A stretch of DNA of 64,000 bases from Microlunatus capsulatus (lineage in GTDB: Bacteria; Actinomycetota; Actinomycetes; Propionibacteriales; Propionibacteriaceae): positions 3,596,001 to 3,660,000 of the forward strand of contig NZ_JAGIOB010000001.1 in NCBI RefSeq assembly GCF_017876495.1. The letters are read 5' to 3'. The notes below the pieces were generated by a model, which worked only from the letters and a program-made list of their open reading frames with translations, was not told where the DNA came from and did no database searches. Positions 19,857-47,698 of this stretch are shown piece by piece. The position numbers and the translations under genes were made by a program. Position 1 is the first letter of the stretch. Each line of letters opens with the position of its first letter.

Positions 19857-19885
19857 TTGTCAGCGGTCGCGGATAGAGTCAGCGC
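19857..19885 (+). promoter_or_regulatory. RecA-NDp/PafBC-type promoter of polA
   Basis: TTGTCAGCG (19857-19865), then 8 bases, then TAGAGT (19874-19879), with GTG of polA 6 bases further on. It matches the published mycobacterial consensus TTGTCRGTG-N8-TANNNT in all but one 9-mer position. No ribosome site is present, so the mRNA is probably leaderless. Confidence 0.75.
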
Positions 19886-22648
19886 GTGCCCGCGAAGACC
19901 GCCCCCTCCTCCAGAGCCGCCAAGAACGCCGCCGCCGCGGCCGCGGCGCCGCCGTCCCGGCCCAAGCTGCTGCTCATCGACGGCCACTCGGTGGCCTACC
20001 GGGCGTTCTTCGCGCTGCCCGTCGAGAACTTCTCCACCCAGACCGGGCAGCACACCAACGGCGTCTTCGGGTTCACCTCGATGCTCATCAACGTCCTGCG
20101 CGACGAGGCGCCCACCCACGTCGGCGTGGCCTTCGACGTGTCCCGGCAGACGTTCCGCTCCGAGATCTACACCGAGTACAAGGCCAACCGCAGCGCGACG
20201 CCGGACGAGTTCAAGGGCCAGGTCGACCTGGTGCGCGAGGTCCTCAAGGCCCTCAACATCCCCTACGTGCAGAAGCCCGGCTTCGAGGCCGACGACGTCA
20301 TCGGCACGCTGGCCACCCAGGCCGAGGCGCAGGGCTTCGACGTCCTCATCTGCACCGGCGACCGCGACGCGTTCCAGCTGGTGACCGAGAACGTCACCGT
20401 GCTCTACCCGCGCAAGGGCGTCTCGGACCTGGCCCGGATGACGCCGGCCACGGTCGAGGAGAAGTACTTCGCCACCCCCACCATGTACCCGGACCTGGCG
20501 GCGCTGGTGGGCGAGACCAGCGACAACCTGCCCGGGGTGCCGGGCGTCGGCCCCAAGACCGCCGTCAAGTGGCTGCAGCAGTACGGCAGCCTCGAGGAGC
20601 TGGTCGCGCACGCGGGCGAGCTCAAGGGCAAGGCCGCCACCGAGTTCCAGGCCCGCACCGAGGACGTGCTGCGCAACCGGCAGATCAACGCGCTGGTCCG
20701 CGACCTGGAGCTCGACGTCGTCGTCGACGACCTGGTCCGTCGGCCGTGGGACCGCGAGGCCACCCACACCCTCTTCGACGGCCTCGAGTTCCGGGTGCTG
20801 CGCGACCGCCTGCTGGAGGCGCTGCCGAACGAGGAGGAGGTGCTGCCCGAGGGCGGCTTCGAGCTGACGGGTGAGGTGCTGGCCCAGGACGCGCTGGCCG
20901 CCTGGCTGGTCGAGCACGCGGCGGGGGAGCGCACCGGCGTCGACGTCATCGGCCACTGGGGCTCGGGCACCGGCGACATCACCGCGCTAGCCCTGGCCGC
21001 TGCCGACGGCGCCGCCGCGTACGTCGACGTCGAGCAGCTCACCCCGGCCGACGACCAGGCGCTGGCCCGCTGGCTGGCCGACCCGACCCACCGCAAGGCC
21101 ATGCACGACGCCAAGGGCCCGCTGCTGGCGCTGTGGGCGCGCGGCTGGGACCTGGACGGCCTGACCTCCGACACCCAGCTGGCCGCCTACCTCACCCGGC
21201 CCGACCAGCGCACCTTCGACCTCGCCGACCTCACCGTCCGCTACCTCAAGCGCGAGCTCAAGGTCGAGGGGTTGCCGGACGCGCTGGACACCGACCAGGA
21301 GGCGCTGGACTTCGGCGACGACGACTCCGGCACCCGGCTGGCGGCCGAGGCGGCCATGGTCCGGGCCCGGGCCGTCATCGACCTGGCCGACGCGCTCGAC
21401 GCCGAGATCGCCCAGCGCAACGGGACCAGCCTGCTGAACGGCGTCGAGCTGCCGCTGCTGCGCACGCTGGCCCGGATGGAGCAGACGGGCATCGCCGTCG
21501 ACCTCGACCACCTGCAGGCGCTGGAGGCCGACTTCGGCGCCAAGGTGACCCAGGCGGCGAACGACGCCTACGAGGTGCTCGGCAAGCAGATCAACCTGGG
21601 CTCGCCGAAGCAGCTGCAGGTGGTGCTGTTCGAGGAGCTGGGGATGCCGAAGACGCGGCGCACCCGGACCGGCTACACGACCGACGCGGACGCGCTGCAG
21701 TCCCTCTACGCCAAGACCGAGCACCCCTTCCTGGCCCACCTGCTGGTGCACCGCGACGCGATCCGGCTCAAGCAGACCGTCGAGGGGCTGCTGAAGTCCG
21801 TCGCCGACGACGGCCGCATCCACACCACCTACGTGCAGACGATCGCGGCCACCGGCCGGCTCTCCAGCACCGACCCGAACCTGCAGAACATCCCGATCCG
21901 CACCGAGGAGGGCCGGCGGATCCGCGAGGCGTTCGTCGTCGGGACCGGCTACGAGTCGCTGATGTCGGCCGACTACTCCCAGATCGAGATGCGGATCATG
22001 GCCCACGCCAGCGACGACGCCGACCTCGTCGAGGCGTTCCGCTCGGGGATGGACTTCCACACCGTCACCGCCTCCCGGGTCTTCGGCGTCGAGCCGGACG
22101 CCGTCACCCCGGCGGAGCGGGCCAAGATCAAGGCGATGAACTACGGCCTGGCCTACGGGCTCAGCGCCTTCGGCCTCAGCCAGCAGCTCACCATCGACAC
22201 CTCCGAGGCCAAGGCGCTGATGGAGGAGTACTTCGAGCGCTTCGGCGGCGTGCGCGACTACCTGCGCTCGCTGGTGGCCGACGCCCGCAAGACCGAGTAC
22301 ACCGAGACGATCCTCGGCCGCCGGCGCTACCTGCCCGACCTGATGAGCGACAACCGGCAGCGCCGCGAGATGGCCGAGCGGATGGCGCTCAACGCGCCCA
22401 TCCAGGGCTCGGCCGCCGACATCATCAAGGTCGCCATGCTGGACGTCGAGCGCGCGCTGGCCGACGCGGGGATGAGCAGCCGGATGCTCCTGCAGGTGCA
22501 CGACGAGCTCGTCTTCGAGGTCGGCACGGGCGAGCGCGAGGCGCTGGAGCAGCTGGTGCGCGACAAGATGGGCCAGGCCGTGGAGATGACGGTGCCCCTC
22601 GACGTGTCGGTGGGGGTCGGCCGCTCCTGGCACGAGGCCGCGCACTGA
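19886..22648 (+). CDS. polA: DNA polymerase I
   Basis: A 920-residue DNA polymerase I for gap filling and Okazaki-fragment processing. An Ala-rich leader of about 25 residues is followed by the 5'-3' exonuclease domain (LLLIDGHSVAYRAFFAL, GFEADDVIGTLA, CTGDRDAFQL, GVPGVGPKTAVKWL). A central 3'-5' exonuclease-like domain lacks the metal-binding aspartates. The polymerase domain has motif A SADYSQIEMR (D696), motif B around KIKAMNYGLAYGLSAFGLS and motif C LQVHDELVFEV (H872-D873-E874). Loss of proofreading is normal for actinobacterial Pol I. The promoter carries the damage-response motif shared with uvrA, uvrB and uvrC. Confidence 0.97.
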   Translation: MPAKTAPSSRAAKNAAAAAAAPPSRPKLLLIDGHSVAYRAFFALPVENFSTQTGQHTNGVFGFTSMLINVLRDEAPTHVGVAFDVSRQTFRSEIYTEYKANRSATPDEFKGQVDLVREVLKALNIPYVQKPGFEADDVIGTLATQAEAQGFDVLICTGDRDAFQLVTENVTVLYPRKGVSDLARMTPATVEEKYFATPTMYPDLAALVGETSDNLPGVPGVGPKTAVKWLQQYGSLEELVAHAGELKGKAATEFQARTEDVLRNRQINALVRDLELDVVVDDLVRRPWDREATHTLFDGLEFRVLRDRLLEALPNEEEVLPEGGFELTGEVLAQDALAAWLVEHAAGERTGVDVIGHWGSGTGDITALALAAADGAAAYVDVEQLTPADDQALARWLADPTHRKAMHDAKGPLLALWARGWDLDGLTSDTQLAAYLTRPDQRTFDLADLTVRYLKRELKVEGLPDALDTDQEALDFGDDDSGTRLAAEAAMVRARAVIDLADALDAEIAQRNGTSLLNGVELPLLRTLARMEQTGIAVDLDHLQALEADFGAKVTQAANDAYEVLGKQINLGSPKQLQVVLFEELGMPKTRRTRTGYTTDADALQSLYAKTEHPFLAHLLVHRDAIRLKQTVEGLLKSVADDGRIHTTYVQTIAATGRLSSTDPNLQNIPIRTEEGRRIREAFVVGTGYESLMSADYSQIEMRIMAHASDDADLVEAFRSGMDFHTVTASRVFGVEPDAVTPAERAKIKAMNYGLAYGLSAFGLSQQLTIDTSEAKALMEEYFERFGGVRDYLRSLVADARKTEYTETILGRRRYLPDLMSDNRQRREMAERMALNAPIQGSAADIIKVAMLDVERALADAGMSSRMLLQVHDELVFEVGTGEREALEQLVRDKMGQAVEMTVPLDVSVGVGRSWHEAAH

Positions 22649-22664
22649 GCGCGGCCGGCCGGGC

Positions 22665-22973
22665 CTAGCCGGCGGGGGTCCAGGTGAAGGCCTCCAGCCA
22701 CCAGCCGTCGTCGGCCGCCCACGAGCGCAGGGCGTCGAAGGCGGCGTCGGTGTTGGGCACGGTGGCCACCACCGCGTCCTCACCCGGCCGGCCCACCTCG
22801 ACGCGCCACCGCCCGGCGGGGGCGCGGACGGCCAGCGCCCGGCTCCCCGCGGTGCCGTCGACGGGCTCGACGAGCACCGAGGCCGCCGCCTCCCAGAGCA
22901 GGGGCCGCAGGCTCTCCGGGGTCAGCGGGTCGGCCACCCGGCCGGTGTCGTCGGTGCCGCGGAAGCCGCTCAT
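22665..22973 (-). CDS. Small hypothetical protein
   Basis: A 102-residue acidic soluble protein that I cannot assign to a family. It contains SLRPLLWEAAASVLVEPVDG near the middle of the N-terminal half and ends WAADDGWWLEAFTWTPAG. No signal peptide or membrane segment is seen. Coding status is supported by an ATG preceded by GGAGGGG at good spacing on the minus strand and by third-position G/C bias. It converges on polA 16 bases away and lies back-to-back with the rpsA leader. Confidence 0.6.
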   Translation of the reverse strand: MSGFRGTDDTGRVADPLTPESLRPLLWEAAASVLVEPVDGTAGSRALAVRAPAGRWRVEVGRPGEDAVVATVPNTDAAFDALRSWAADDGWWLEAFTWTPAG

Positions 22974-23310
22974 CGTGTCCCCTCCTCGAGCCCGGGGTGG
23001 TCCCGGACGTGCTGCGTCCCTGCGAGGCTAGGCGGTGCCGCCGGAGCGGCGGGCGGGGGCCGGTCCACGAGGGGACCGCACGTTTGACCCTGCCGCAGCC
23101 CGAACGTATCCTGAGATGTCGCTGTGGCCTGCGCGACCTCGGACGGAGCAGGTCGCGCGTGTCGAGGGTTCGTCAGTTGTCGGGTCAGGTCTGGGTCCAA
23201 GCACCACGTGTGGGTTTGAGCAGCAGGTTGTCACGCAGCAGGTCCTCCCCTCGACGGGCGGCCGCAGCACACCGGAACACCCACACCTTCCACTATCGGA
23301 GCCCTACTAC
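22974..23310. other. rpsA upstream region and 5' leader
   Basis: 337 bases with no gene. It contains the rpsA promoter at 23084-23112 and a predicted untranslated leader of about 190 bases. No known riboswitch motif was recognised in the leader. Confidence 0.55.
23084..23112 (+). promoter_or_regulatory. Strong sigma-70-type promoter of rpsA
   Basis: TTGACC (23084-23089), a 17-base spacer and TATCCT (23107-23112) form the best housekeeping promoter in the window. The transcript should start near 23119, leaving a leader of about 190 bases before rpsA. Confidence 0.7.
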
Positions 23311-24804
23311 ATGACGTCCTCCCTCGAGGCACCCCCGCAGGTCGCAGTCGACGACTTCGACTCGGCCGAGGCTTTCCTGGCCGCGATCGACGCGACCATC
23401 AAGTACTTCAACGACGGCGACATCGTCACCGGCACCGTCGTCAAGGTCGACCGTGACGAGGTCCTGCTGGACATCGGCTACAAGACCGAAGGGGTCATCC
23501 CCTCCAAAGAGCTGTCCATCAAGCACGACGTCGACCCGTTCGAGGTCGTCAGCGTCGGCGACGTGATCGAGGCCCTCGTCCAGCAGAAGGAGGACAAGGA
23601 GGGCCGCCTGATCCTGTCCAAGAAGCGGGCTCAGTACGAGCGCGCCTGGGGCACGATCGAGAAGATCAAGGAAGAGGACGGCGTCGTCACCGGCCACGTC
23701 ATCGAGGTCGTCAAGGGTGGCCTCATCATCGACATCGGCCTGCGCGGCTTCCTGCCCGCCTCGCTGGTGGAGATGCGCCGTGTCCGCGACCTGCAGCCCT
23801 ACGTGGGCATGGAGCTCGAGGCCAAGATCATCGAGCTGGACAAGAACCGCAACAACGTGGTCCTGTCCCGCCGTGCGTGGCTCGAGCAGACGCAGTCCGA
23901 GGTCCGCCAGAACTTCCTCACGCAGCTGCAGAAGGGCCAGATCCGCAAGGGTGTCGTGTCCTCCATCGTCAACTTCGGTGCCTTCGTGGACCTGGGTGGC
24001 GTCGACGGCCTGGTGCACGTCTCCGAGCTGTCCTGGAAGCACATCGACCACCCCTCCGAGGTCGTCGAGGTCGGCCAGGAGGTCACCGTCGAGGTGCTCG
24101 ACGTGGACATGGACCGCGAGCGTGTCTCCCTGTCGCTGAAGGCGACGCAGGAGGACCCGTGGCAGGCCTTCGCCCGGACCCACCAGATCGGCCAGATCGT
24201 GCCCGGCAAGGTCACCAAGCTGGTCCCGTTCGGTGCGTTCGTGCGGGTCGAGGAGGGCATCGAGGGTCTGGTGCACGTCTCCGAGCTGGCCGAGCGCCAC
24301 GTCGAGATCCCCGAGCAGGTCGTCACGGTCAACGACGACGTCCTGGTCAAGATCATCGACATCGACCTCGAGCGTCGCCGCATCTCGCTGTCGCTGAAGC
24401 AGGCCAACGAGGGTGTCGACATCAACTCCGAGGAGTTCGACCCCACGCTGTACGGCATGGCGGCGTCCTACGACGACCAGGGCAACTACCTGTACCCGGA
24501 GGGCTTCGACTCCGAGACGGGCGAGTGGCTCGAGGGCTACGACGAGCAGCGCGCGGCCTGGGAGCAGCAGTACGCCGAGGCCCACGCCCGCTGGGAGGCG
24601 CACAAGAAGCAGGTCGAGGACGCCGAGAACGCCGAGGTCACCGCGGCGGCTCCCGCGAGCTACTCCTCGGGCGGCAGCACCGGCGGTGGCGCTCCTGCCG
24701 CCGACGTGGCCCCGGCCAGCAGCTCCGCCGCGCCGGAGGGCTCGCTGGCCTCCGACGAGGCCCTGCAGGCCCTGCGCGAGAAGCTGACGGGCGGCGCCTC
24801 CTGA
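23311..24804 (+). CDS. rpsA: 30S ribosomal protein S1
   Basis: A 497-residue protein with four S1 RNA-binding repeats (roughly residues 37-105, 124-188, 209-277 and 294-363), as in other actinobacterial S1 proteins. Repeat markers include GTVVKVDRDEVLLDIGYKTEG, GVVSSIVNFGAFVDLGGVDGLVHVSELSW and GKVTKLVPFGAFVRVEEGIEGLVHVSEL. An acidic, Ala/Ser-rich C-terminal tail follows. S1 binds mRNA on the 30S subunit, and can bind tmRNA. The frame is open further upstream, but ATG 23311 starts the conserved N-terminus and follows a weak CGGAG. A strong terminator follows the gene. Confidence 0.95.
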   Translation: MTSSLEAPPQVAVDDFDSAEAFLAAIDATIKYFNDGDIVTGTVVKVDRDEVLLDIGYKTEGVIPSKELSIKHDVDPFEVVSVGDVIEALVQQKEDKEGRLILSKKRAQYERAWGTIEKIKEEDGVVTGHVIEVVKGGLIIDIGLRGFLPASLVEMRRVRDLQPYVGMELEAKIIELDKNRNNVVLSRRAWLEQTQSEVRQNFLTQLQKGQIRKGVVSSIVNFGAFVDLGGVDGLVHVSELSWKHIDHPSEVVEVGQEVTVEVLDVDMDRERVSLSLKATQEDPWQAFARTHQIGQIVPGKVTKLVPFGAFVRVEEGIEGLVHVSELAERHVEIPEQVVTVNDDVLVKIIDIDLERRRISLSLKQANEGVDINSEEFDPTLYGMAASYDDQGNYLYPEGFDSETGEWLEGYDEQRAAWEQQYAEAHARWEAHKKQVEDAENAEVTAAAPASYSSGGSTGGGAPAADVAPASSSAAPEGSLASDEALQALREKLTGGAS

Positions 24805-24858
24805 GGCACCACCCCCGGCTGAGCCGGACCCCGGTCCGGCACCAGCGCTGAGCTCGAC

Positions 24859-24896
24859 CACGAGGCCCTCCCACCGTCCGGTGGGAGGGCCTCGTG
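24859..24896 (+). terminator. Hairpin terminator after rpsA
   Basis: A perfect 17-bp stem (24859-24875 with 24880-24896) and a GTCC loop, about 55 bases after the rpsA stop. It is one of the strongest hairpins in the window. Confidence 0.85.
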
Positions 24897-24926
24897 CCGT
24901 TCCGGGCCCGGCGACGCCGACCTGCC

Positions 24927-24938
24927 TAGGCTGACGCC
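24927..24938 (+). promoter_or_regulatory. -10 element for a leaderless coaE transcript
   Basis: TAGGCT (24927-24932) ends six bases before the coaE ATG, and there is no ribosome site. Confidence 0.5.
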
Positions 24939-25538
24939 ATGCTGCGGGTGGGTCTGACGGGCGGGATCGCCTCCGGGAAGAGCACGGCCGCCGACGAGCT
25001 GGCGGCCCTGGGGGCCGTGCTGGTCGACGCCGACGTGCTGGCGCGGGAGGTGGTCGAGCCCGGGACGCCGGGGCTCGCGGAGGTGGTCGAGCGCTTCGGG
25101 CGGGACGTCCTCGACGGCGACCGGTTGGACCGCGCGGCGTTGGGCCGGGTCGTCTTCGCCGACGCCGGCGCCCGTCGTGACCTCGAGCGGGTCGTCCACC
25201 CCCGGGTGCGGGCCCGCGCCGCCGAGATCGAGGCCGCCGCCCCGCCCGACGCCGTCGTGGTGCACGTGATCCCGCTGCTCGTCGAGACCGGCCAGGCCGG
25301 GGACTTCGACCTCTGCGTCGTCGTCGACCTCGAGCCCGCGACCCAGCTGCGCCGGCTCCGCGAGCGCAGCGGGCTGGACGAGGCGGAGGCCCGGTCCCGC
25401 GTCGAGGCACAGGCCGGCCGGGCCGAGCGGCTGGCCGTCGCCGACCGCGTGCTGGACAACGAGGGCGGCCCCGACGACCTCCGGCGGCAGGTCCGCGCGC
25501 TGTGGGCAGAACTCACCCCGGGCGACACCCCCGGCTGA
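24939..25538 (+). CDS. coaE: Dephospho-CoA kinase
   Basis: A 199-residue P-loop kinase that phosphorylates the 3'-OH of dephospho-CoA in the last step of coenzyme A synthesis. The P-loop is GGIASGKST (residues 8-16). VDADVLAREVV and HVIPLLVETG are the substrate and lid motifs. It is the short single-domain form, without the C-terminal GrpB-like domain found fused to CoaE in mycobacteria. Its place after rpsA is conserved across actinobacteria. The ATG is positioned for leaderless translation. Confidence 0.93.
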   Translation: MLRVGLTGGIASGKSTAADELAALGAVLVDADVLAREVVEPGTPGLAEVVERFGRDVLDGDRLDRAALGRVVFADAGARRDLERVVHPRVRARAAEIEAAAPPDAVVVHVIPLLVETGQAGDFDLCVVVDLEPATQLRRLRERSGLDEAEARSRVEAQAGRAERLAVADRVLDNEGGPDDLRRQVRALWAELTPGDTPG

Positions 25539-25636
25539 CATACTCCCTCGTGCGCCGGGCCGGGCGGGGTGTCCCGGTCCCGCACCGTGCACAGGCGTCG
25601 GGCCCGACCCGACCCGTCGAGAGGGAACGAACCACT

Positions 25637-26932
25637 GTGGAATGCCCACGCTGCCGCGCCGTGCTCCCGGACGTCGCCCACTTCTGCCAGGTCTGCGGGC
25701 TCGACCAGCGGTCGGGGGACACCGACCGCCGCCAGTCCTTCGCCGCCAAGCCCGACGAGCCCGTCGCGTCCTTCGCGCTGATCTCCTCGATCATGCCCCG
25801 CGGTGCCGGCCAACGCCCCCAGACCTACCGGCTGGCGCTGACCGTCTCGCTGGTCGTCGCCCTGGTCGCCGCGATCTTCGGCGCGATGCCGATCGCCGTC
25901 CTGGTCGCCGCCTTCGCCATCCCGGTCGTCTACGTCGTGTACCTCTACGACGTGAACCTGTGGGAGGACGAGCCGCTCCCCGTGACGGCGCTCGCCTTCC
26001 TGCTCACCGGCGGGCTGGCCCTGGTGTTCACCGTGCTCTGGACGTTCCTGCGCGGTCCGGTGCCCTTCGCGCCCACCGGCCTCGACGGCACCCTGAGCGC
26101 GGCCCCGCGGCTCGGCACCTTCCTGCTCGTCGCGGTCCTCGTCCCCGTGGTCGGGGAGCTGATCCGCCAGGTCGGGCCCGTCGTGCTGGCCAGCCGCCCC
26201 TCGTTCGACGACCTGATGGACGGCCTGACGTTCGGCGTGGTCAGCGGCGTGGCGTACGCCTGCTTCGACACCCTGGTGCGGCACTGGGACCTGCTGACCG
26301 GCGGGCTCCAGGACCAGAACGCCGGGCTGTGGGCCTCGCTGGTCTTCCTCGAGGGCTTCGTGAAGCCCCTGGTCATGGGCACCGCGACCGGCCTCGCCTG
26401 CGCCGAGTTCTCGGGCCTGGGCCGCGGCTACGACGGCTTCACGCCGCGCTACGTGCGGGCGGTGCTGCTGGCCGTGCTGGCGAACGTCGCCTACCAGGCG
26501 GGGACCTACCTCTTCTCCTTCGTCGGCAGCCCCACCCTGGCCGTCCTGCTCAGCGTCCTCTGGGGCCTGCTCATCCTCGGCGTCCTGATCCTGCGCCTGC
26601 GCGTCGTGCTGCACACCGGCCTGATGGAGGCCGCCCTGGAGCGGTCAGCCCGTGAGCGCGGGGCCGGCGAGGACGGGGACCTCCAGTTCTGCGGCCGCTG
26701 CGAGATGCCGCTGCTGGACCACGCCGCCTTCTGCAACGCCTGCGGGACCGCCGTCCGCGTCCAGGCCAAGCCCGAGCGCGCGGGGGTCCCGGCCCTGGCC
26801 GGGGCCGGACCAATGTCGCCCGCAGGGGCCACGTCGGCCGCCCCGGCCGGGGGCCCGCCGGAGGAGCCACCGCCCTCGGAGGACGTCACCGAGGTCCGCC
26901 GTCCGGTCGCCGGTGAGGAGGACCGGGCATGA
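25637..26932 (+). CDS. PrsW-like membrane protein with zinc ribbons at both ends, probably non-catalytic
   Basis: A 431-residue protein. The N-terminus is a zinc ribbon (C3, C6, C17, C20) and a second ribbon lies near the C-terminus (C352, C355, C366, C369). Between them are about eight membrane segments with the spacing of PrsW-family intramembrane proteases. The catalytic motifs look degenerate: the usual EExxK appears as GELIRQ, the second-helix glutamate region reads ACFDTLVRHW, and the later His motif reads GFVKPLVMG. A scaffold or sensor role is therefore more likely than proteolysis; this is inference. GTG 25637 follows GAGAGGGAA. Its stop overlaps the next gene (ATGA), so the two probably work together. 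Confidence 0.6.
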   Translation: MECPRCRAVLPDVAHFCQVCGLDQRSGDTDRRQSFAAKPDEPVASFALISSIMPRGAGQRPQTYRLALTVSLVVALVAAIFGAMPIAVLVAAFAIPVVYVVYLYDVNLWEDEPLPVTALAFLLTGGLALVFTVLWTFLRGPVPFAPTGLDGTLSAAPRLGTFLLVAVLVPVVGELIRQVGPVVLASRPSFDDLMDGLTFGVVSGVAYACFDTLVRHWDLLTGGLQDQNAGLWASLVFLEGFVKPLVMGTATGLACAEFSGLGRGYDGFTPRYVRAVLLAVLANVAYQAGTYLFSFVGSPTLAVLLSVLWGLLILGVLILRLRVVLHTGLMEAALERSARERGAGEDGDLQFCGRCEMPLLDHAAFCNACGTAVRVQAKPERAGVPALAGAGPMSPAGATSAAPAGGPPEEPPPSEDVTEVRRPVAGEEDRA

Positions 26933-27924
26933 GCCAGCAGCCGGGGTCGTGGGACCAGGGCCAGGGCGGCCTGCCGCCGCAGGGGCCGCCGCCGGGCCAG
27001 CCCGGGTACGGCGGGCAGCCCGCCTACGGGCCGCCCGCCGGCTACGGGCAGCAGCCCCCGCCGGGGTACGGGGGCCAGGGCTACGGGGGCCAGGGGTACG
27101 GGGCCCAGGGGTACGGGGCCCCCGGGTACGGGCAGCAGCCGCCCGGCTACGGCGGCGGGGGCCGCGGCCCGGCCGGGCCGTCCCCGCGCGGCAAGAGCAC
27201 CGGGCTCATCCTCGGCCTGGTCGGCGGGGCGCTCGCGCTGCTGGTGCTGATCGGCGGCATCGCCCTCGTCTTCGGCGGGGACGACGGCGACCAGCCGACG
27301 ACGACCATCAGCCCGGGGCTGCCCACGGCCCCGCCGGACGACCCCTCGGCCGACCCGTCGGCGGAGCCGTCCGAGCCGCCGAGCACCGAGCCCTCCGACG
27401 AGCCCAGCGCGTCGAGCAGCCCCGAGCCGGACCCGACGCCCTCCTCGGGCGGCGGCCAGCCGGCCGGTGATGCGGTCGACCTCGGCAACGACATCGCGCT
27501 GGTGCCCGCGCAGGGCTGGGAGGTCACCAAGAAGGCGAAGGGTCTGGCCCAGCTGTCCAACGGCGACGAGCTCTTCCTCGGCCAGGCGCTCGAGCTGGAG
27601 ACGGGCACCAACCCGGGCCAGCTCTGCACCGCGTGGCACAAGCAGGTCGCCGAGGGCGGGGCGGACGCCAAGCTCGCCGACCCGAAGAAGGTCGACCTGG
27701 GCTCGTCGGGGCTGAGCGGGGCCAGCTGCCTCGCCCAGGTCACCGTGTCGGGCGGGCAGGGGTCCAGCGATGTCCTCGTCTACACGGTCGTGTCGGTGCG
27801 GGAGAGCGACGGCGTGACCGTGCTGGGGACCGTCTACTTCACCGCCGGCTCCGACACCGAGCAGGTGGACGAGGACTTCTCCTCGATGGTGACCTCGATG
27901 CTGAAGACGCAGGTCGCGGGCTAG
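26929..27924 (+). CDS. Gly/Tyr/Pro-rich single-pass membrane protein of unknown function
   Basis: A 331-residue protein. Residues 1-85 are a Gly/Tyr/Pro/Gln-rich tail with five consecutive GYGxx repeats. One membrane segment follows (about 88-110: GLILGLVGGALALLVLIGGIALVFG), then a Ser/Pro/Glu-rich linker (about 120-180) and an extracellular domain of about 145 residues (DLGNDIALVPAQGWEVTKKAKGL onward) with two cysteines that could pair. This layout is common in actinobacterial envelope proteins that sit behind zinc-ribbon or PrsW-like genes; no function is known to me. The ATG overlaps the preceding stop, indicating translational coupling. Confidence 0.7.
   Translation: MSQQPGSWDQGQGGLPPQGPPPGQPGYGGQPAYGPPAGYGQQPPPGYGGQGYGGQGYGAQGYGAPGYGQQPPGYGGGGRGPAGPSPRGKSTGLILGLVGGALALLVLIGGIALVFGGDDGDQPTTTISPGLPTAPPDDPSADPSAEPSEPPSTEPSDEPSASSSPEPDPTPSSGGGQPAGDAVDLGNDIALVPAQGWEVTKKAKGLAQLSNGDELFLGQALELETGTNPGQLCTAWHKQVAEGGADAKLADPKKVDLGSSGLSGASCLAQVTVSGGQGSSDVLVYTVVSVRESDGVTVLGTVYFTAGSDTEQVDEDFSSMVTSMLKTQVAG
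27064..27138 (+). repeat. Five tandem 15-base units coding GYGxx
   Basis: Five in-frame units (consensus GGGTACGGGGGCCAG) encode GYGGQ, GYGGQ, GYGAQ, GYGAP and GYGQQ within the preceding gene. Tandem units of this kind can change copy number without a frameshift. Confidence 0.7.
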
Positions 27925-27936
27925 CCCCCGACCCGA

Positions 27937-27971
27937 CGAGGGCGCTTCCGGCGGGTGGGGGAGCGCCCTCG
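27937..27971 (+). terminator. Hairpin terminator upstream of uvrB
   Basis: A 13-bp stem (27937-27949 with 27959-27971, one G-T pair) and a 9-base loop begin 12 bases after the previous stop and end just before the uvrB promoter. Confidence 0.7.
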
Positions 27972-28008: not shown

Positions 28009-28037
28009 CTGTCGGAGGCCGCGCGTAGGCTTCCCGC
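28009..28037 (+). promoter_or_regulatory. RecA-NDp/PafBC-type promoter of uvrB
   Basis: CTGTCGGAG (28009-28017), 8 bases, TAGGCT (28026-28031), then the uvrB ATG after 6 bases. The 9-mer is identical to the one before uvrA. No Shine-Dalgarno sequence is present. Confidence 0.75.
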
Positions 28038-30134
28038 ATGCGTCCCCTCGAAGACCTCCAGCGCGTCGTGGCACCCCTGCACGTGGTGAGCGACTTCGAG
28101 CCGTCGGGCGACCAGCCGACGGCCATCGCCGAGCTGGAGCGGCGGATCAACGCCGGCGAGCAGGACGTCGTCCTGCTCGGCGCCACCGGCACCGGCAAGA
28201 CGGCCACCGTCGCCTGGCTGGCCGAGCGGGTGCAGCGCCCCATCCTGGTCATGCAGCCCAACAAGACCCTGGCCGCCCAGTTCGCGAACGAGCTCCGGCA
28301 CTTCTTCCCGAAGAACGCCGTCGAGTACTTCGTCTCGTACTACGACTACTACCAGCCTGAGGCCTACGTGCCGCAGACGGACACCTACATCGAGAAGGAC
28401 TCCTCGCTCAACGAGGAGGTCGAGCGGCTCCGGCACTCGGCGACCAACTCGCTGCTGACCCGCCGCGACGTCGTCGTGGTGGCCACGGTGTCGGCCATCT
28501 ACGGCCTGGGCACCCCGCAGGAGTACGTCGACCGGATGGTCGCGCTCAAGGTGGGCCAGGAGATCGAGCGCGACGCCCTGCTCCGGCAGCTCGTCGGCAT
28601 CCAGTACGCCCGCAACGACCTCGCGGGCACCCGGGGCACGTTCCGGGTGCGGGGCGACACCCTCGAGGTGTTCCCCATGTACGAGGAGCTGGCCGTCCGG
28701 ATCGAGTTCTTCGGCGACGAGATCGAGAAGCTCAGCACGCTGCACCCGCTCACCGGGGAGGTGGTGACCGAGGACGAGCACATCTACCTGTTCCCGGCCA
28801 GCCACTACGTCGCCGGGCCCGAGCGGATGGAGAAGGCCATCGCCCGGATCGAGACCGAGCTGGGGGAGCGGCTGGCCGAGCTCGAGAGCCAGAACAAGCT
28901 GCTCGAGGCCCAGCGGCTGCGGATGCGCACCAGCTACGACATCGAGATGATGCGCCAGATCGGGACCTGCTCGGGCATCGAGAACTACTCGAGCCACATC
29001 GACGGCCGCGGCCGCGGCACCGCGCCCTACTGCCTGCTCGACTACTTCCCCGAGGACTTCCTGCTCGTCGTCGACGAGTCGCACGTGACCATCCCGCAGA
29101 TCGGCGGGATGTACGAGGGCGACATGTCGCGCAAGCGGACGCTGGTCGACCACGGGTTCCGGCTGCCCAGTGCCATGGACAACCGGCCGCTGCGGTTCGA
29201 GGAGTTCGTCGAGCGGATCGGCCAGACGGTGTACCTCTCGGCCACGCCCGGCAACTACGAGCTGGCGCGCGGCGACGGCTTCGTCGAGCAGATCATCCGC
29301 CCGACGGGCCTGATCGACCCCGAGGTCATCGTCAAGCCCACCCAGGGCCAGATCGACGACCTGATGGGGGAGATCCGGCTCCGCGTCGAGCGCAAGGAGC
29401 GGGTCCTGGTCACCACCCTGACCAAGAAGATGTCGGAGGACCTCACCGACTACCTGCTGGAGAACGGCATCCGGACCCGGTACCTGCACTCCGAGGTCGA
29501 CACGCTGCAGCGGGTCGCCCTGCTCCGCGAGCTGCGGATGGGCGAGTACGACGTGCTGGTCGGCATCAACCTGCTTCGCGAGGGCCTCGACCTGCCCGAG
29601 GTGTCGCTGGTGGCCATCCTCGACGCCGACAAGGAGGGCTTCCTGCGCAGCGCGAAGAGCCTCATCCAGACGATCGGCCGCGCGGCCCGCAACGTGTCGG
29701 GCCAGGTGCACATGTACGCCGACTCGATCACCGACTCGATGGCCCAGGCCATCGACGAGACCAACCGGCGGCGCGACATCCAGGTGGCCTACAACCTCGA
29801 GCACGGCATCGACCCCAAGCCGCTGCAGAAGAAGATCGCCGACATCACCGACATGCTCGCCCGCGAGGACGCCGATACCGAGCAGCTGCTGAGCGGCCGC
29901 CCGCAGGGCAAGGGCAAGTCCCCGGTGCCGGCGCTCGGGCTCAAGGCCGGGGCCGACCACGGCCGTCGGCTGGGCGGGATGCCGGCGGGCGAGCTGGCCG
30001 ACCTCGTCCAGGAGCTCACCACCCAGATGCACGGGGCGGCCGCCGACCTGCAGTTCGAGGTGGCGGCCCGGCTGCGCGACGAGATCTCCGACCTCAAGAA
30101 GGAGCTGCGGCAGATGGTGGAGGCCAGCCGCTAG
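28038..30134 (+). CDS. uvrB: UvrABC excinuclease subunit B
   Basis: A 698-residue damage-verifying helicase of nucleotide excision repair. Walker A is GATGTGKT (residues 48-55). The beta-hairpin that clamps DNA includes [21 protein letters not shown] from about residue 97. The helicase II motifs [29 protein letters not shown] and QTIGRAARN are present. A UVR domain for UvrC binding closes the protein ([22 protein letters not shown]). UvrA loads UvrB and UvrC then incises. The gene is monocistronic, leaderless by its promoter, and followed by the terC riboswitch. Confidence 0.97.
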
Positions 30135-30187: not shown

Positions 30188-30194
30188 GACCGGC

Positions 30195-39564: not shown

Positions 39565-39682
39565 CCGCGTCGCGCCGCCCGGCGACGGTGGTGCGACGTC
39601 CCCCCGGAGCCCGGCCCGTGAGCGTCACTCTGGTCGGGCGGCGCCGCGTACCCAGGATGACCCGGGTGTCACACCGGGCGCT

Positions 39683-39697
39683 GGTAGCTCTACTACC
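39683..39697. promoter_or_regulatory. Inverted repeat GGTAG-N5-CTACC next to a TTGACA box
   Basis: GGTAG and CTACC face each other across CTCTA, directly upstream of TTGACA (39700-39705). TAC-rich inverted repeats suit LuxR/NarL-type regulators, two of which flank this spot. Confidence 0.4.
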
Positions 39698-39699
39698 CG

Positions 39700-39750
39700 T
39701 TGACATGTCTGACTCTCCGCGGGTACACATCCCACCTCCCGCCCTACACT
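39700..39750 (+). promoter_or_regulatory. Promoter region of the LuxR-type gene
   Basis: TTGACA (39700-39705) with TACACA (39724-39729) 18 bases on, and a second TANNNT, TACACT (39745-39750), six bases before GTG 39757. The gene may have a leadered and a leaderless start; sequence alone cannot decide. Confidence 0.45.
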
Positions 39751-39756
39751 GACCCT

Positions 39757-40530: not shown

Positions 40531-40560
40531 GCCGCCTGGTGGAGAACGGAGCCGGTCCGG

Positions 40561-41748
40561 TCAGACCCGGCCGACCGGGGCCGGTCGGCGGCCCACCGCC
40601 AGCGCGGCCGCCACCAGGGCCAGCAGCCCCACCGCGGGGGTGCCGACCTCGAGCGCCCGCAGCAGCCCGGCGCCGGTCGCGACCAGGCCGAGCCCGAGGG
40701 CCGCGAGCGCCTGGACCAGGTAGCCGACGGTGTACGCCGCGGACAGCACGCCCGCCCGGTGGTGGGCGGGGGCGCTCGCGGTGACCAGCCCGAGCCCCCC
40801 GGAGAACAGCAGGCTGTAGCCGGCCCCGCCGACCACCGAGGACGCGAGGAACCCGGCCATCGAGTGGGTGCTGGCGGCCAGCACCAGCAGGCCCAGCCCG
40901 GCCAGAGCGGCGGGCGGGCCCAGGACCAGGGCGCGCCGCGGGGCCAGGTCGCGAGCCAGCAGGGCCACGGCCCCGATGACCACGGCCGAGACGGAGATGA
41001 CCGCCCCGCTGACCAGGGCGTCGGTGGAGCCGACGAGGTCGTGGGCGATCTGGGCGCCCAGGGCGAGGTAGACCGCGCCCAGGGCGTAGGCGCCGGCGAT
41101 GGCCAGGGTGCCCGCGCTGAACAGCCGGCGGGCGCCGCGCGGCACGTGCGGTCGGCGCGGGCGCCAGCGCTCGGCGGCCGGCCCACCCGTCCGGGGCAGG
41201 AACGCCACCAGGACGGCGGTGCCGAGGGTGACGCCCCCCAGCACGACGAAGGTCAGGTGCCGCGGTGCCGGCGCGTGCTGGACGAGCGCCCCGCCCACCA
41301 GGGTGGCCAGCGCCAGCCCGGTGGCGGTGGCGGTGGTGGTCACCGAGCCGGCGCGGCCGGCACGACCCGACGGCTCCAGCTCGGCGACGGCCGCCGTGGC
41401 GGGGCTGAGCGAGAGGCCCACCCCGACGCCCATCAGGCCCCGGCCGACGAGGACCCAGCCGAGGCTGTCGGCCAGCGCGAAGGCCAGCGAGCCGAGGGCG
41501 AGGACGCCGAGGCCCAGCAGCATGACCACCCGGCGGCCGAGCACGTCCGACAGGTTGCCGAACAGCAGCAGGACGGGGATGAGCACCAGCGGGTAGACCG
41601 CGAAGATCAGCGTCGTGGTGGACGGCGCGAGGTCCCACGCCCGGGCGTAGAGGGGGTAGACGACCGTCGGCGCGCCGCTCGCCCACAGCGCGAGGCCGGC
41701 GACGGCGGCGGCGGTCCAGAAGCTGGCGGTGCGGCTCAGTGCGGGCAT
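40561..41748 (-). CDS. MFS transporter, probable drug or metabolite exporter
   Basis: A 395-residue protein with 12 predicted membrane segments. The MFS signature between helices 2 and 3 is GNLSDVLGRRVVMLLGLG, and the motif C-like VGRGLMGVGVGLSLSPATAAVAEL supports an antiporter of the exporter type. The minus-strand ATG follows GGAGAG. It is divergent from an HxlR-type regulator, and an inverted repeat in the gap overlaps both promoters, so repression by that regulator, relieved by a ligand, is likely. Substrate unknown. Confidence 0.87.
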   Translation of the reverse strand: MPALSRTASFWTAAAVAGLALWASGAPTVVYPLYARAWDLAPSTTTLIFAVYPLVLIPVLLLFGNLSDVLGRRVVMLLGLGVLALGSLAFALADSLGWVLVGRGLMGVGVGLSLSPATAAVAELEPSGRAGRAGSVTTTATATGLALATLVGGALVQHAPAPRHLTFVVLGGVTLGTAVLVAFLPRTGGPAAERWRPRRPHVPRGARRLFSAGTLAIAGAYALGAVYLALGAQIAHDLVGSTDALVSGAVISVSAVVIGAVALLARDLAPRRALVLGPPAALAGLGLLVLAASTHSMAGFLASSVVGGAGYSLLFSGGLGLVTASAPAHHRAGVLSAAYTVGYLVQALAALGLGLVATGAGLLRALEVGTPAVGLLALVAAALAVGRRPAPVGRV

Positions 41749-41802
41749 CGGCTCTCCTCGTGCGGGGCCCTGGGGATGCGGCGCCGCACCGGGGTGACGC
41801 TC

Positions 41803-41830
41803 ACCGTAGCACCTGGGTAGGAAGTTCCAA
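41803..41830 (-). promoter_or_regulatory. Promoter of the MFS gene
   Basis: On the minus strand, TTGGAA (41830-41825), 16 bases and TACGGT (41808-41803) give a transcript start about 50 bases before the MFS ATG. The -35 lies inside the inverted repeat at 41812-41836. Confidence 0.5.
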
Positions 41831-41836
41831 CTCAGG
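41812..41836. promoter_or_regulatory. Inverted-repeat operator shared by MFS and HxlR genes
   Basis: The arms CCTGGGTAGGAA and TTCCAACTCAGG flank a central G and pair at 10 of 12 positions. The repeat covers the -35 regions of both divergent promoters, as expected for an autoregulating HxlR/MarR-type repressor site. Confidence 0.6.
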
Positions 41837-41840
41837 TCGG

Positions 41841-41852
41841 TACGCTGGAGAC
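41841..41852 (+). promoter_or_regulatory. -10 element for the leaderless HxlR-type regulator
   Basis: TACGCT (41841-41846) ends six bases before GTG 41853; TAGGAA lies 17 bases upstream of it. Confidence 0.5.
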
Positions 41853-42314
41853 GTGGACGCGGAGGAGCAGGACCGGCGGGACGTGGCGGCGCGCTGCTCG
41901 ATCGCGCGCACCCTCGAGGTGGTCGGGCAGAAGTGGACCCTGCTCGTCGTCCGCGAGGCGTTCCTGGGCGTCACCCGGTTCGCCGACTTCCGCTCCCGGC
42001 TCGGCGTGGCCCCGGACGTCCTCGCCGCCCGTCTCGCCGTGCTGGTCGAGCACGGCGTGCTCGAGCGCCGCCGCTACCGAGCTCCGGGCGAGCGGGAGCG
42101 CGACGAGTACGTGCTCAGCCCGGCGGGGGAGGAGCTGCTGCCGGTGCTGAGCGCGATGCTCGCCTGGGGCGACGCCCACCGGCCGACCGGCCGCCCGCCC
42201 GTCGGCCTCAGCGTCGAGCGGGCCACCGGTCAGCCGGTCCGGCTGGCCCACGTCCGGCCCGACGGCACGGTGCTGGGGACCGGCGCGGTCCAGCTGGTCC
42301 GCCGCGCGTCCTGA
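41853..42314 (+). CDS. HxlR-family transcription regulator
   Basis: A 153-residue winged-helix protein. HxlR features are CSIARTLEVVGQKWTLLVVREAFLGVTRFADFRSRLGVAPDVLAARLAVLVEHGVLERR, with the conserved cysteine (residue 15) at the N-terminal edge, then the wing YRAPGERERDEYVLSPAGEELLPVL. Some HxlR proteins use that cysteine to sense electrophiles or quinones. GTG 41853 is at leaderless distance; upstream in-frame codons would overlap the operator. It converges on the metallo-hydrolase gene with a 3-base gap. Confidence 0.88.
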   Translation: MDAEEQDRRDVAARCSIARTLEVVGQKWTLLVVREAFLGVTRFADFRSRLGVAPDVLAARLAVLVEHGVLERRRYRAPGERERDEYVLSPAGEELLPVLSAMLAWGDAHRPTGRPPVGLSVERATGQPVRLAHVRPDGTVLGTGAVQLVRRAS

Positions 42315-42317
42315 GCC

Positions 42318-42977
42318 CTACCAGCCGCGGGCGCGCCACTCCGCGAGGTGCGGCCGTTCGGCGCCGAGGGTCGTCCCGTCCCCGTGACCGGGGTGCACGA
42401 CGGTGTCGTCGCCGAAGCGCGCGAACACCTTGGCCTCGAGGTCGTCCAGCAGGGACGCGAACTCGGGCGGTCCCGCGGTCTTCCCCGGTCCGCCCGGGAA
42501 GAGGCCGTCGCCGGTGAAGAGGTGGGTGGGGCCGTCCTCGCCCGTCCAGGCCAGGGCGACCGAGCCGGGCGTGTGGCCGACCAGCCCGATGACCTCGAGC
42601 CGGTGGGACCCGACGGCGACGACGTCGCCGTCCCAGACCCCGACCAGCCCCTCCACCCAGGCGCCGGTGGCGATGGCGTCGACGTCCGGGCGCCCGCAGA
42701 CGAGCGCGGCGCCGGTGGCCCCGGCCACGGCGGCCAGCGCCTGCCAGTGGTCGCCGTGCCGGTGGGTCGTGACGACGGTGGCCAGGTCGGCGCCGGTCAC
42801 GGCCAGCAGCCGCTCCGGCTCGGCGGCGGCGTCGACCAGCAGCGCCGCGTCCGGGGTGCGGAGCAGGTAGGCGTTGTTGTCCATCGGGCCGACGCTCACC
42901 TTCGTGAGCGTCAGCGTCGGGGCGAGCGGCAGCACCAGCGGCTCGCCACCGGGCTCGACGTGGTGCGGTCCGGGCAT
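42318..42977 (-). CDS. Metallo-beta-lactamase-fold hydrolase (glyoxalase II-like)
   Basis: A 219-residue MBL-fold protein. Metal-binding motifs are THRHGDHW (HxHxDH), VGHTPGSVAL, the bridging aspartate in FTGDGLFPGG, and VVHPGHGDGTTLG. The arrangement fits hydroxyacyl-thiol hydrolases; in a mycothiol-using organism the substrate may be an S-acyl-mycothiol. A gene of this type adjoins uvrA in mycobacteria too (Rv1637c). The minus-strand ATG follows GGAGGA. It lies 64 bases downstream of the MDMPI-type gene and is probably transcribed with it. Confidence 0.85.
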   Translation of the reverse strand: MPGPHHVEPGGEPLVLPLAPTLTLTKVSVGPMDNNAYLLRTPDAALLVDAAAEPERLLAVTGADLATVVTTHRHGDHWQALAAVAGATGAALVCGRPDVDAIATGAWVEGLVGVWDGDVVAVGSHRLEVIGLVGHTPGSVALAWTGEDGPTHLFTGDGLFPGGPGKTAGPPEFASLLDDLEAKVFARFGDDTVVHPGHGDGTTLGAERPHLAEWRARGW

Positions 42978-43041
42978 CGGGGTCCTCCGGTTCAGGGGGT
43001 GGGGTCGGTCGGTGATCTGGGCGGGGCGGGAGCCCCCCGGG

Positions 43042-43782
43042 TCAGAAGGCGGGCAGCCGGAGGCCGTCGACGCCCTCGAGGTCGGCGCCGTCGGTCCGCC
43101 CGGTCAGCCACCCCAGCAGGAGGGCGCTGCGGCCGCGGACGGTCCGGGTGGCGCCGGAGCTGCCGACGACGAGCGTGCTCGTGGGGGAGACGAGCTCCAG
43201 CCGCGGGAACTCGTCGCGCTCGCGCAGCCGGAAGCCGCACAGCTCCAGCAGCCAGTCGGCGGTGGCGTCGTCGAGGTCGGCCATCTCGCGGCCGAGGCCG
43301 AGGTCGACGTGGTGCACCGCGACCTCCAGCAGCCGCGCCAGCGGCAGCAGCCGGGCGGGGGCCCGCAGGCCGCCGCGGAGCTCGACCACCTCGTCCCAGC
43401 GGCCGGCCTCCTGCAGCGCCTCGAAGGCGTCCGCGAGCAGGCCGGCGGAGGTGTCGAGGTCGATCTGCAGCTCCAGCCCGGAGCGGCCGGCGCCGGCCTC
43501 GATCTCGTCGTCGCGCTGCCCGGGGGCGGGGTACATCTCCGCCCGCCGACCCGCGAGCGCGCCGTCGACCAGCCGGCGCAGCGCGTCGGCCTGCCGGGCC
43601 AGGTGGGTCGCGAGGTGCCCGCGGCTCCAGCCGGGCAGCCGGCTCGGCGCCTGCCAGTCCTCGTCGGCGACGGCGATGGTCGCGCCCAGCAGCCGGGAGG
43701 TGGCGTCGCGCAGCAGGTCGTGCAGCCGGTCCTGCTGGTCCCGCTGCGCGTCGGGGTCGGGAGCCGGGGCGTCGGGGGGCAT
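43042..43782 (-). CDS. Maleylpyruvate isomerase-family (mycothiol-dependent) protein
   Basis: A 246-residue protein of the MDMPI/DinB-like fold. The N-terminal metal-binding bundle has LPGWSRGHLATHLARQADALRRLVDG and, about 95 residues later, EVAVHHVDLGLG, supplying the His and Glu ligands of the family. A C-terminal SCP2-like domain of about 85 residues follows (LELVSPTSTLVVGSSGATRTVRGRSALLLGWLTGR). Family members use mycothiol as cofactor; the exact reaction is unknown. It is divergent from uvrA. The minus-strand ATG is six bases from TAGCGT. Confidence 0.85.
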   Translation of the reverse strand: MPPDAPAPDPDAQRDQQDRLHDLLRDATSRLLGATIAVADEDWQAPSRLPGWSRGHLATHLARQADALRRLVDGALAGRRAEMYPAPGQRDDEIEAGAGRSGLELQIDLDTSAGLLADAFEALQEAGRWDEVVELRGGLRAPARLLPLARLLEVAVHHVDLGLGREMADLDDATADWLLELCGFRLRERDEFPRLELVSPTSTLVVGSSGATRTVRGRSALLLGWLTGRTDGADLEGVDGLRLPAF

Positions 43783-43794
43783 GCGCTCACGCTA
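43783..43794 (-). promoter_or_regulatory. -10 element for the leaderless MDMPI-type gene
   Basis: Minus-strand TAGCGT (43794-43789) ends six bases before the ATG at 43782. Confidence 0.5.
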
Positions 43795-43845
43795 GCCGCC
43801 CGCGCCGGGCCCCCCGCGCGGCCGGGCGACGGCGCGCGGCCAGAA

Positions 43846-43876
43846 CTGTCGGAGGGCCCACCTACGATGGTTGATC
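43846..43876 (+). promoter_or_regulatory. RecA-NDp/PafBC-type promoter of uvrA
   Basis: CTGTCGGAG (43846-43854), 8 bases, TACGAT (43863-43868), then GTG of uvrA after 8 bases. The 9-mer is identical to that of uvrB. Confidence 0.75.
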
Positions 43877-46921
<3,045 letters not shown>

Positions 46922-47062
46922 CCCACCGGAGCAGTTGACTCTTCCAGCGATTCCTCGAACTTTCCGGGTCCGCGGTTCGTCATCACCGACGACGGCCTCC
47001 GCGCCGGTCCAGCCGGACCGCCGCGGGGCCGCCCGACCGTCCCACGCACCCAGGAGGCCCCC

Positions 47063-47602
47063 ATGCCCGAGCGCGACCCCGACCTGAGCCCCTTCGAGCA
47101 CGGCCCGACCCGCCGCACCGTCCTGCGCGCCGCCGGGCTGGTGGCCCTGACCGGGGGCGGCGTGGGCGTCCTCGCCGCCTGCTCCTCCGACGCGGGGGTG
47201 GCGGCACCGGCCGCGACCGGCGCGGCCCCGTCCTCGGCCGCCCCCGCCTCCTCCGCCCCCGCCTCGCCGTCCCCCTCGGCGTCCGCCTCCTCCTCGGCGC
47301 CGGCGGCGCCCTCCGGCCCCAGCGTCGCGGCCGCCGACGTGCCGGTGGGCAGCGGCGTCATCCTCGAGGACGCGAAGTACGTGGTCACCCAGCCCACCAA
47401 GGGCGAGTTCAAGGCGTTCAGCAGCATCTGCACCCACCAGGGCTGCCCCGTCTCCGAGATCCAGGGCGACGCCATCCTCTGCAACTGCCACGGCAGCAAG
47501 TTCTCGATCAAGGACGGCTCCGTGCTGAACCCGCCCGCCAGCGAGCCGCTGGCCCAGGCGTCGGCCACGGTCGAGGGCGACACCGTCGTCGTCCAGGCCT
47601 GA
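47063..47602 (+). CDS. Rieske [2Fe-2S] lipoprotein with Tat signal
   Basis: A 179-residue exported protein. The N-terminus has a twin-arginine motif (TRRTVLRAA, R17-R18) and a lipobox LAAC (C40), so it is probably exported folded and lipid-anchored. A long Ala/Ser/Pro linker (about 45-90) leads to a Rieske domain: cluster ligands C123, H125 (CTHQGC) and C140, H143 (CNCHGS), plus C128 and C142, which can form the stabilising disulfide. The redox partner is unknown; it is not a cytochrome bc1 subunit by context. ATG follows CAGGAGG. A similar gene lies near uvrA/uvrC in other actinobacteria. Confidence 0.9.
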   Translation: MPERDPDLSPFEHGPTRRTVLRAAGLVALTGGGVGVLAACSSDAGVAAPAATGAAPSSAAPASSAPASPSPSASASSSAPAAPSGPSVAAADVPVGSGVILEDAKYVVTQPTKGEFKAFSSICTHQGCPVSEIQGDAILCNCHGSKFSIKDGSVLNPPASEPLAQASATVEGDTVVVQA

Positions 47603-47608
47603 CCGGCG

Positions 47609-47646
47609 CCGCGGACGCCCGGGCTCCGGGGGCCGGGCGTCCGCGG
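47609..47646 (+). terminator. Hairpin terminator after the Rieske gene
   Basis: A perfect 14-bp stem, CCGCGGACGCCCGG/CCGGGCGTCCGCGG, with a 10-base loop, starts 6 bases after the stop. Confidence 0.8.
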
Positions 47647-47668
47647 TCCAGCAGCACGCGCACCGGGG

Positions 47669-47698
47669 CTGTCAGCGGCCCCACCTAGAGTGGTCGAC
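47669..47698 (+). promoter_or_regulatory. RecA-NDp/PafBC-type promoter of uvrC
   Basis: CTGTCAGCG (47669-47677), 8 bases, TAGAGT (47686-47691), then GTG of uvrC after 7 bases. The -10 is identical to that of polA. Confidence 0.75.

Follow-up and report, generated by a model that had tools for sequence, protein, structure and literature searches.

The mycobacterial DNA-damage promoter that works independently of RecA (RecA-NDp) has the consensus TTGTCRGTG-N8-TANNNT. In Mycobacterium smegmatis, as described in PMC11804915, the activator PafBC is itself activated by single-stranded DNA (ssDNA); the helix-turn-helix (HTH) of PafB engages the -26 element, that of PafC engages domain 4 of sigma-A, and the complex of PafBC with RNA polymerase (RNAP) and sigma-A at a promoter is known. 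According to passages of PMC8223512, targets of PafBC include UvrABC (PafBC-controlled in M. smegmatis), RecA and RecBCD, and the promoter extends to other Actinobacteria. The PafBC literature that was met is nearly all mycobacterial. The stretch analysed here (the window) comprises 64,000 nucleotides of the actinobacterium Microlunatus capsulatus (contig NZ_JAGIOB010000001.1, positions 3,596,001 to 3,660,000), and it carries four elements, before polA, uvrB, uvrA and uvrC, that very probably belong to this known kind of promoter. The identities of the four genes come from curated NCBIfam equivalog models with scores over the cut-off. The candidate promoters and their genes are:

19857..19879, + strand: putative PafBC-type promoter of polA, TTGTCAGCG - N8 - TAGAGT, with the -10 at 19874-19879 (0/100 shuffles)
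19886..22648, + strand: polA, DNA polymerase I, PRK05755/TIGR00593 over cut-off; GTG start at 19886, 6 nt past the -10 hexamer, a leaderless layout
28009..28031, + strand: putative PafBC-type promoter of uvrB, CTGTCGGAG - N8 - TAGGCT, with the -10 at 28026-28031
28038..30134, + strand: uvrB, NCBIfam equivalog over cut-off; ATG at 28038, 6 nt past the -10
43846..43868, + strand: putative PafBC-type promoter of uvrA, CTGTCGGAG - N8 - TACGAT, with the -10 at 43863-43868
43877..46921, + strand: uvrA, NCBIfam equivalog; GTG at 43877, 8 nt past the -10, alternative start ATG at 43880
47669..47691, + strand: putative PafBC-type promoter of uvrC, CTGTCAGCG - N8 - TAGAGT, with the -10 at 47686-47691
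47699..49822, + strand: uvrC, NCBIfam equivalog; GTG at 47699, 7 nt past the -10, with an additional in-frame GTG at 47690 that overlaps the -10

The pattern YTGTCRGMG-N8-TANNNT has four matches in the window (at 19857, 28009, 43846 and 47669, all on the + strand), against an expectation of 0.00 from 100 dinucleotide shuffles, none of which contains a match. When any base is allowed at position 8 and one mismatch is tolerated, the same four sites are returned (expected 0.65; no shuffle reaches 4), so that no further gene in the window has the motif at that level. A chance origin of the four sites is ruled out by the shuffles together with reversed-pattern controls. The first-pass annotation of this DNA had described the sites with an exact 8-base spacer, 6-8 bases from TANNNT to the start codon, a 9-mer shared by uvrA and uvrB and a -10 shared by polA and uvrC, and had seen the combination before no other gene of the window. 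All of these points hold: the measured distances are 6 (polA), 6 (uvrB), 8 (uvrA) and 7 (uvrC), the common 9-mer is CTGTCGGAG, and the common -10 is TAGAGT. Its identification with the mycobacterial consensus stands for the core TGTCRG-G, the spacer and the -10, which are present at 4/4 window sites, but not for positions 1 and 8, where the sites depart from it (three begin with CTGTC, and the last three bases are GAG or GCG). The sequence in this lineage is looser, with C or T at position 1 (G or A in some relatives) and any base at position 8.

The whole genome (4.41 Mb) was scanned with N at position 8, using the same pattern reversed as the control. There are 39 matches versus 0 for the control, which rules out a peculiarity of the window and answers the annotation's question of whether the motif is equally frequent at random positions in favour of a real element. 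With the spacer left free between 4 and 12, 39 of 41 matches fall at 8 (two extra ones at 5 and 11; reversed free-spacer control, 2), and since a free spacer adds only two matches, the 8-bp spacer is a hard rule. An ATG or GTG that opens a reading frame of at least 80 codons lies 5-10 nt past TANNNT at 26 of the 39 sites (14 at 6, 9 at 7), compared with 0-4 sites for nine other 6-nt offsets. The layout is therefore mainly leaderless, with exceptions that include recA (start 51 nt past the -10) and pup (71 nt). For three of the 39 sites (L005, L008, L029) no protein was scanned. Pfam places recA (L040), the NAD-dependent DNA ligase gene ligA, two UvrD-type helicases, a second PolA-family polymerase, an AP-endonuclease-type TIM barrel, dnaX, a RadA-like protein, a DinG-like helicase and an RNase_T-type exonuclease among the targets. 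By our own count, about 14 of the 39 are replication or repair genes, the four window genes included. The proposal that the four genes form one excision-repair regulon thus survives in part: many sites lie at repair genes, but the four are 4 of 39 promoters and have no regulon of their own. Also close behind damage-type promoters are the genes for cytidylate kinase, histidinol dehydrogenase, S-adenosylhomocysteine hydrolase and malate dehydrogenase (L001, L004, L013, L015) and, in a genome from outside the class, for transketolase (L219).

The regulator is encoded in the same genome. As the annotation had suggested looking for, both pafB and pafC are present, downstream of pafA (L042, C1:3980000-3999000): pafA is a TIGR03686 equivalog, and it is followed by pafB (WYL+WCX) and pafC (HTH_PafC+WYL+WCX). 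PafB matches the M. smegmatis PafB of entry 7p5x at E 9e-59, and also the A. aurescens PafBC in 6sj9. The four sites would be sigma-A promoters without a -35 element, switched on by the heterodimeric WYL-domain activator PafBC once it is bound to ssDNA. PafB would read the -26 element (TGTCRGNG) and PafC would hold sigma-A domain 4, while RNAP would use TANNNT as the -10. Transcription would start about 6-8 bases past the -10, at or beside the start codon, and the proposed mRNAs would therefore be leaderless. The nucleotide-excision repair genes uvrA, uvrB and uvrC and the gap-filling polA would be induced together by damage, independently of LexA, within a regulon of some 39 promoters. That the PafBC of M. 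capsulatus acts at the four sites is suggested by sequence, while the ssDNA trigger and the division of roles between PafB and PafC are taken by analogy from M. smegmatis. We hold this account of activation with high confidence; its basis is the promoter architecture, the strict spacing, the enrichment, the nature of the target genes, the retention of the motif upstream of uvrB and polA in relatives, and the pafABC genes found in the genome.

Compared with the mycobacterial PafBC regulon, the M. capsulatus regulon has the same core TGTCRG-G, 8-bp spacer and TANNNT, the same uvrA/B/C and recA targets, and pafBC downstream of pafA. As in M. smegmatis, recA has a separate LexA box (PMC11804915). 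The differences are a position 1 that is mostly C, a position 8 that can be any base, the inclusion of polA, a mostly leaderless layout, and the occurrence of the motif on pup-prcBA and bpa in part of the genus. No passage on polA was met in the available parts of PMC8151990.

The motif is conserved in relatives. In a sample of 40 genomes (M. capsulatus included), matches exceed the reversed control in 40/40. The annotation had proposed as a check that these promoters be compared across related genomes; at uvrB this covered 79 of 80 named loci, those with some upstream DNA (a few with very little), each scored out of 11 positions. At least 10/11 is reached in 20/79 loci, 20/20 of them Actinomycetota; each of the 20 has an ATG or GTG 6-7 nt past the -10, and the opposite strand never scores above 9. 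Non-actinobacterial uvrB loci never reach 10/11, and one of the 20 (L075) is nearer a variant, TGTCRYACC, that is described below. The polA survey comprises 30 loci from 28/29 genomes, 26 of which reach near the N-terminus. Here 12/26 score at least 10/11, with the reversed control at most 9: Microlunatus, Nocardioides, a Nocardioidaceae metagenome-assembled genome (MAG), a Propionibacteriales MAG, Nostocoides, Phycicoccus, Nocardia, Hamadaea, Saccharothrix, Peterkaempfera, Streptomyces oceani (mismatch in the -10) and Microcella. With 12 of 26 loci carrying the motif, polA is a recurrent target of the class, although apparently not in every family. For Streptomyces venezuelae, an initial search is stated to have found the M. 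smegmatis motif not conserved (PMC9380542). Among Streptomycetaceae (uvrB loci L047 and L059, polA loci L248 and L249), Peterkaempfera scores 11/11 at uvrB and 10/11 at polA, and Streptomyces oceani scores 10/11 at both (mismatch in the right half at uvrB). These canonical or near-canonical matches hint at an element in the family and would weigh against the remark on S. venezuelae; they are a hint rather than a contradiction, because the genomes scored are Peterkaempfera and Streptomyces oceani, with no named S. venezuelae among them.

The annotation had also seen no LexA-type box at the four genes. A search for CGAAC-N4-GTTCG in the region between 300 bases before each motif and 60 bases after it gave the same outcome, with best matches of 7, 7, 7 and 6 of 10. 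Exact boxes are lacking in the 64 kb window, and boxes with at most two mismatches (at least 8 of 10) are not in excess there (30 found, 39 expected). LexA is encoded in the genome, with exact boxes upstream of recA and lexA; of the 39 motif sites, the one at recA is alone in having such a box within 1 kb. A LexA operon was thereby ruled out by the box scans of the window and the motif sites. The four promoters share with the LexA/SOS regulon their DNA-damage genes, in a genome where LexA and exact boxes exist, and differ from it in having no detected box and in carrying an activator-type -26 element rather than an operator palindrome. Of the claim of a LexA-independent regulon, the part on missing boxes stands; independence as such is deduced from those missing boxes, in a genome that encodes LexA and has both elements at recA.

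Other readings of the four sites have been weighed against control by PafBC. LexA could control the genes through boxes too diverged to recognise, leaving the motif secondary. The LexA gene, the exact boxes at recA and lexA, and reported LexA binding at uvrA in S. venezuelae speak for this; the best matches near the four promoters, the window-wide lack of excess and the single box among 39 sites make it very improbable. The sites could also be leaderless sigma-A promoters that are constitutively active and have an unusual extended element, in which case the common 9-mer would reflect a housekeeping preference rather than damage control. A TANNNT followed by 6-8 nt to the start is a usual layout of leaderless actinobacterial promoters, and several targets of the motif are housekeeping genes. 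Set against this are the rarity of the 9-mer with strict 8-bp spacing (39 per genome), its frequency at repair genes, and the way in which promoter flavour follows PafBC by lineage in the phylum sample below; we judge it no more probable than hidden LexA control. Least probable, by a small step, is that a different WYL-type activator reads the motif. Four further WYL matches exist in the genome besides the pafB-pafC pair, and the WYL proteins SiwR and DriD act in damage responses (passages of PMC10693628 and PMC11804915), but the motif agrees with the published RecA-NDp/PafBC element, and across the phylum its flavour goes with the presence of PafC and with the recognition helix of PafB.

Several findings weigh against control by PafBC as a simple, LexA-free repair programme. 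The other 25/39 targets include enzymes of histidinol, malate and S-adenosylhomocysteine as well as transporters, so that either the regulon extends beyond repair or some of the sites are inactive. The recA gene carries a LexA box in addition to the PafBC-type motif. Binding of S. venezuelae LexA was detected at the uvrA region by chromatin immunoprecipitation (ChIP) and at a uvrA site in vitro (PMC9380542), and LexA independence of uvrA is therefore not general. The motif is below 10/11 at uvrB of Bifidobacterium, Corynebacterium, Mobiluncus and other actinobacterial loci (e.g. L053, L056-L058, L061), and it is lacking at polA in single loci of Mycolicibacterium, Arthrobacter, Corynebacterium and Microbacterium.

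The distribution of PafBC-type promoters was followed through a phylum sample of 296 genomes, 35 of them from the class of M. capsulatus, the same genomes being used for all scans. Canonical sites number at least 9 in 28/35 class genomes, nearly always far above the control; outside the class the counts are mostly near control, although the PafC HTH is common there. PF19187 matches occur in 236/296 genomes at E<=0.001 (192 over cut-off), and the idea that the motif is missing outside the class for want of PafBC was dropped. Much of the gap is instead accounted for by a recoded motif. The variant, TGTCRYACC in the same register, was first seen upstream of uvrB in some class members and outgroups. 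As TGTCRYACC-N7-TANNNT it has 0 sites in M. capsulatus and at most 7 in genomes of its class, while outside the class counts reach 36, 26, 24, 20, 19, 18 and 17 per genome, the control being 0 in each of these. In five genomes chosen for high counts, 111/120 matches with a free spacer of N3-N11 fall at N7 (reversed control, 11). When genomes are grouped by PafC match (set by hand at about E 1e-15, with counts transcribed by hand), the 117 with a strong match hold 622 variant sites (control 13), the 84 with a weak one 13 (16) and the 60 without one 28 (27). The variant flavour itself is well supported, and we are nearly as confident that PafBC is likely to be its reader.

The variant shares with the canonical element the TGTC core, the distance from TGTC to the -10, an often leaderless layout and overlapping targets (recA, UvrD-type, RadA-like, uvrB), and differs in a right half of YACC instead of GNG and in occurring mainly outside the class. 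Its sites have the fixed distance from TGTC to TANNNT and co-occur with PafBC, while the right half RGTG is replaced by YACC by construction; the variant is therefore described as working like RecA-NDp and is not filed under that name. Pfam was run on 29/30 one-per-genome variant loci (L230 left out), and 11/29 targets are recA (3), UvrD, RadA-like, SSB, RmuC (3), a Y-family polymerase and an exonuclease. Among the remaining ones are a DNA methylase and three DUF222 proteins, two of which have HNH; three further loci, chosen by eye, are SbcD-like. The DUF222 proteins behind variant promoters outside the class are at L226, L229 and L233. In one genome, L280, L285 and L290 begin near-identical proteins, and gene families may therefore inflate the per-genome counts. 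Hybrid or variant right halves (GGACC, GTACC, ATACC) are seen at Saccharothrix polA (L244), Saccharothrix uvrB (L062) and Hamadaea uvrB (L065), and these may be intermediates between the two flavours. Limited searches of open-licence literature, in the parts available, met no published counterpart of the variant; a search for Acidimicrobiia with PafBC found nothing, and one for TGTCACACC with DNA damage gave no bacterial work among the matches listed, judged by title and the start of the abstract.

A candidate for the specificity residue is position 67 of PafB (own-genome numbering), the residue before the conserved Arg in the helix AF-x-R-M-FERDK. The N-terminus alignment kept the 128 rows with a FERDK-type helix of 135 and dropped 7; the 135 rows held at least two without a PafB helix (G079, G259: PafB cut off or missed), and extraction by regular expression left 34/140 helices without a result. 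The first 19 outside-class genomes were picked mainly for high variant counts (G291 dropped) and the next batch mainly for low or mixed ones; the remaining outside-class PafC matches were then added (73 regions) except G195, G212, G214 and G332, and six listed class genomes were left out. In the class, position 67 is S/E/N/D/G in 27/29 genomes (580 canonical sites, control 36; 39 variant, control 12), and M. smegmatis PafB has Ser. Of the 99 genomes outside the class, 62 have Arg (49 canonical sites against a control of 60; 429 variant against 4), 30 have Lys (81 canonical against 27; 79 variant against 3), 5 have His and 2 have Gln. In one family both Arg and Lys are found, Arg with 20 variant sites and Lys with 0. 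The two class exceptions are a Lys genome, with 7 variant and 23 canonical sites, and a Gln genome, with 7 and 6. Column 67 is the best predictor of canonical excess (p 1.8e-6), all p values here ignoring phylogeny.

Taken jointly, the data may be read as two lineage-specific promoter codes, read by the PafB helix, with the regulon recoded in step with its activator and with a proteasome loop in part of the genus; we offer this tentatively, its chances being a little short of even. The codes would share TGTC and the distance to the -10 and differ in the right half, TGTCRGNG in the class and TGTCRYACC in many other actinobacterial families that have PafBC. The change would be read at the residue before the conserved Arg (S/E/N/D/G in nearly all class genomes seen, Arg, or Lys/His with mixed sites, elsewhere), and the whole damage regulon would thus be recoded in step with PafB. 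Residue 67 as the cause of the flavour is a guess to which we give rather less than an even chance. There is no clean switch: outside the class, variant sites number anywhere from 0 to 36 in genomes with Arg and from 0 to 17 in those with Lys, and column 48 is a better predictor of variant counts than column 67 (p 3.9e-7 vs 4.8e-5). Other PafB columns correlate as well, motif count was part of the basis on which genomes were selected, and the Arg correlation is confounded by phylogeny. In addition, nine of the 29 scanned variant loci, one batch, gave no replication or repair enzyme.

The finding on the four genes is itself correct and of a known kind; what is added is polA and proteasome genes in a non-mycobacterial regulon, and a recoded promoter that follows PafBC. 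The promoter code is readable from sequence across the phylum, and polA and, in part of one genus, the proteasome genes belong to it. The recoded version that other branches seem to use could reveal how a regulator and the promoters it reads changed in concert; if the joint reading is true, this natural co-change of a WYL activator helix and its promoters would be a direct route to how sigma adaptation chooses its sites, and damage regulons would be predictable in uncultured actinobacteria. The published doubt on such a response in Streptomyces becomes testable.

The proteasome targets in M. capsulatus are the Pup-PrcB-PrcA operon and bpa, which encodes the bacterial proteasome activator:

L138 9399-9421, - strand: damage-type motif before pup-prcBA
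L022 1501-1523, - strand: damage-type motif before bpa

Surveys of 30 loci each, drawn from 39 (pup) and 38 (bpa) genomes with a match and counting M. capsulatus in both, give a motif of at least 10/11 before pup-prcBA in 10/19 same-genus loci, and directly upstream of bpa in 6/19, compared with 0/11 outside the genus in either case. At pup, the reversed control and the opposite strand reach 10 in 0/30 loci. At bpa, 5 loci also score 10 or 11 on the opposite strand, which a divergent gene shares, and this strand is thus no clean control there, a point against the proteasome link. The M. smegmatis proteasome clears RecA after damage, as stated in PMC8223512. By analogy, a damage promoter on the proteasome genes would tie RecA clearance to damage induction, and in part of the genus the same switch would also drive the proteasome core together with its activator. 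A limited literature search, in the parts of the sources available, met no published statement of the damage motif on pup-prcBA or bpa. The proteasome locus of M. capsulatus is split: an mpa-type ATPase gene, pup, prcB, prcA, prephenate dehydrogenase and cmk lie at about 0.36 Mb (L138, C1:350000-368000), and pafA with pafBC follows scpA-scpB at about 3.99 Mb (L042), apart from pup-prcBA. The exchanged neighbours of the pup and paf loci suggest a reciprocal inversion between the two.

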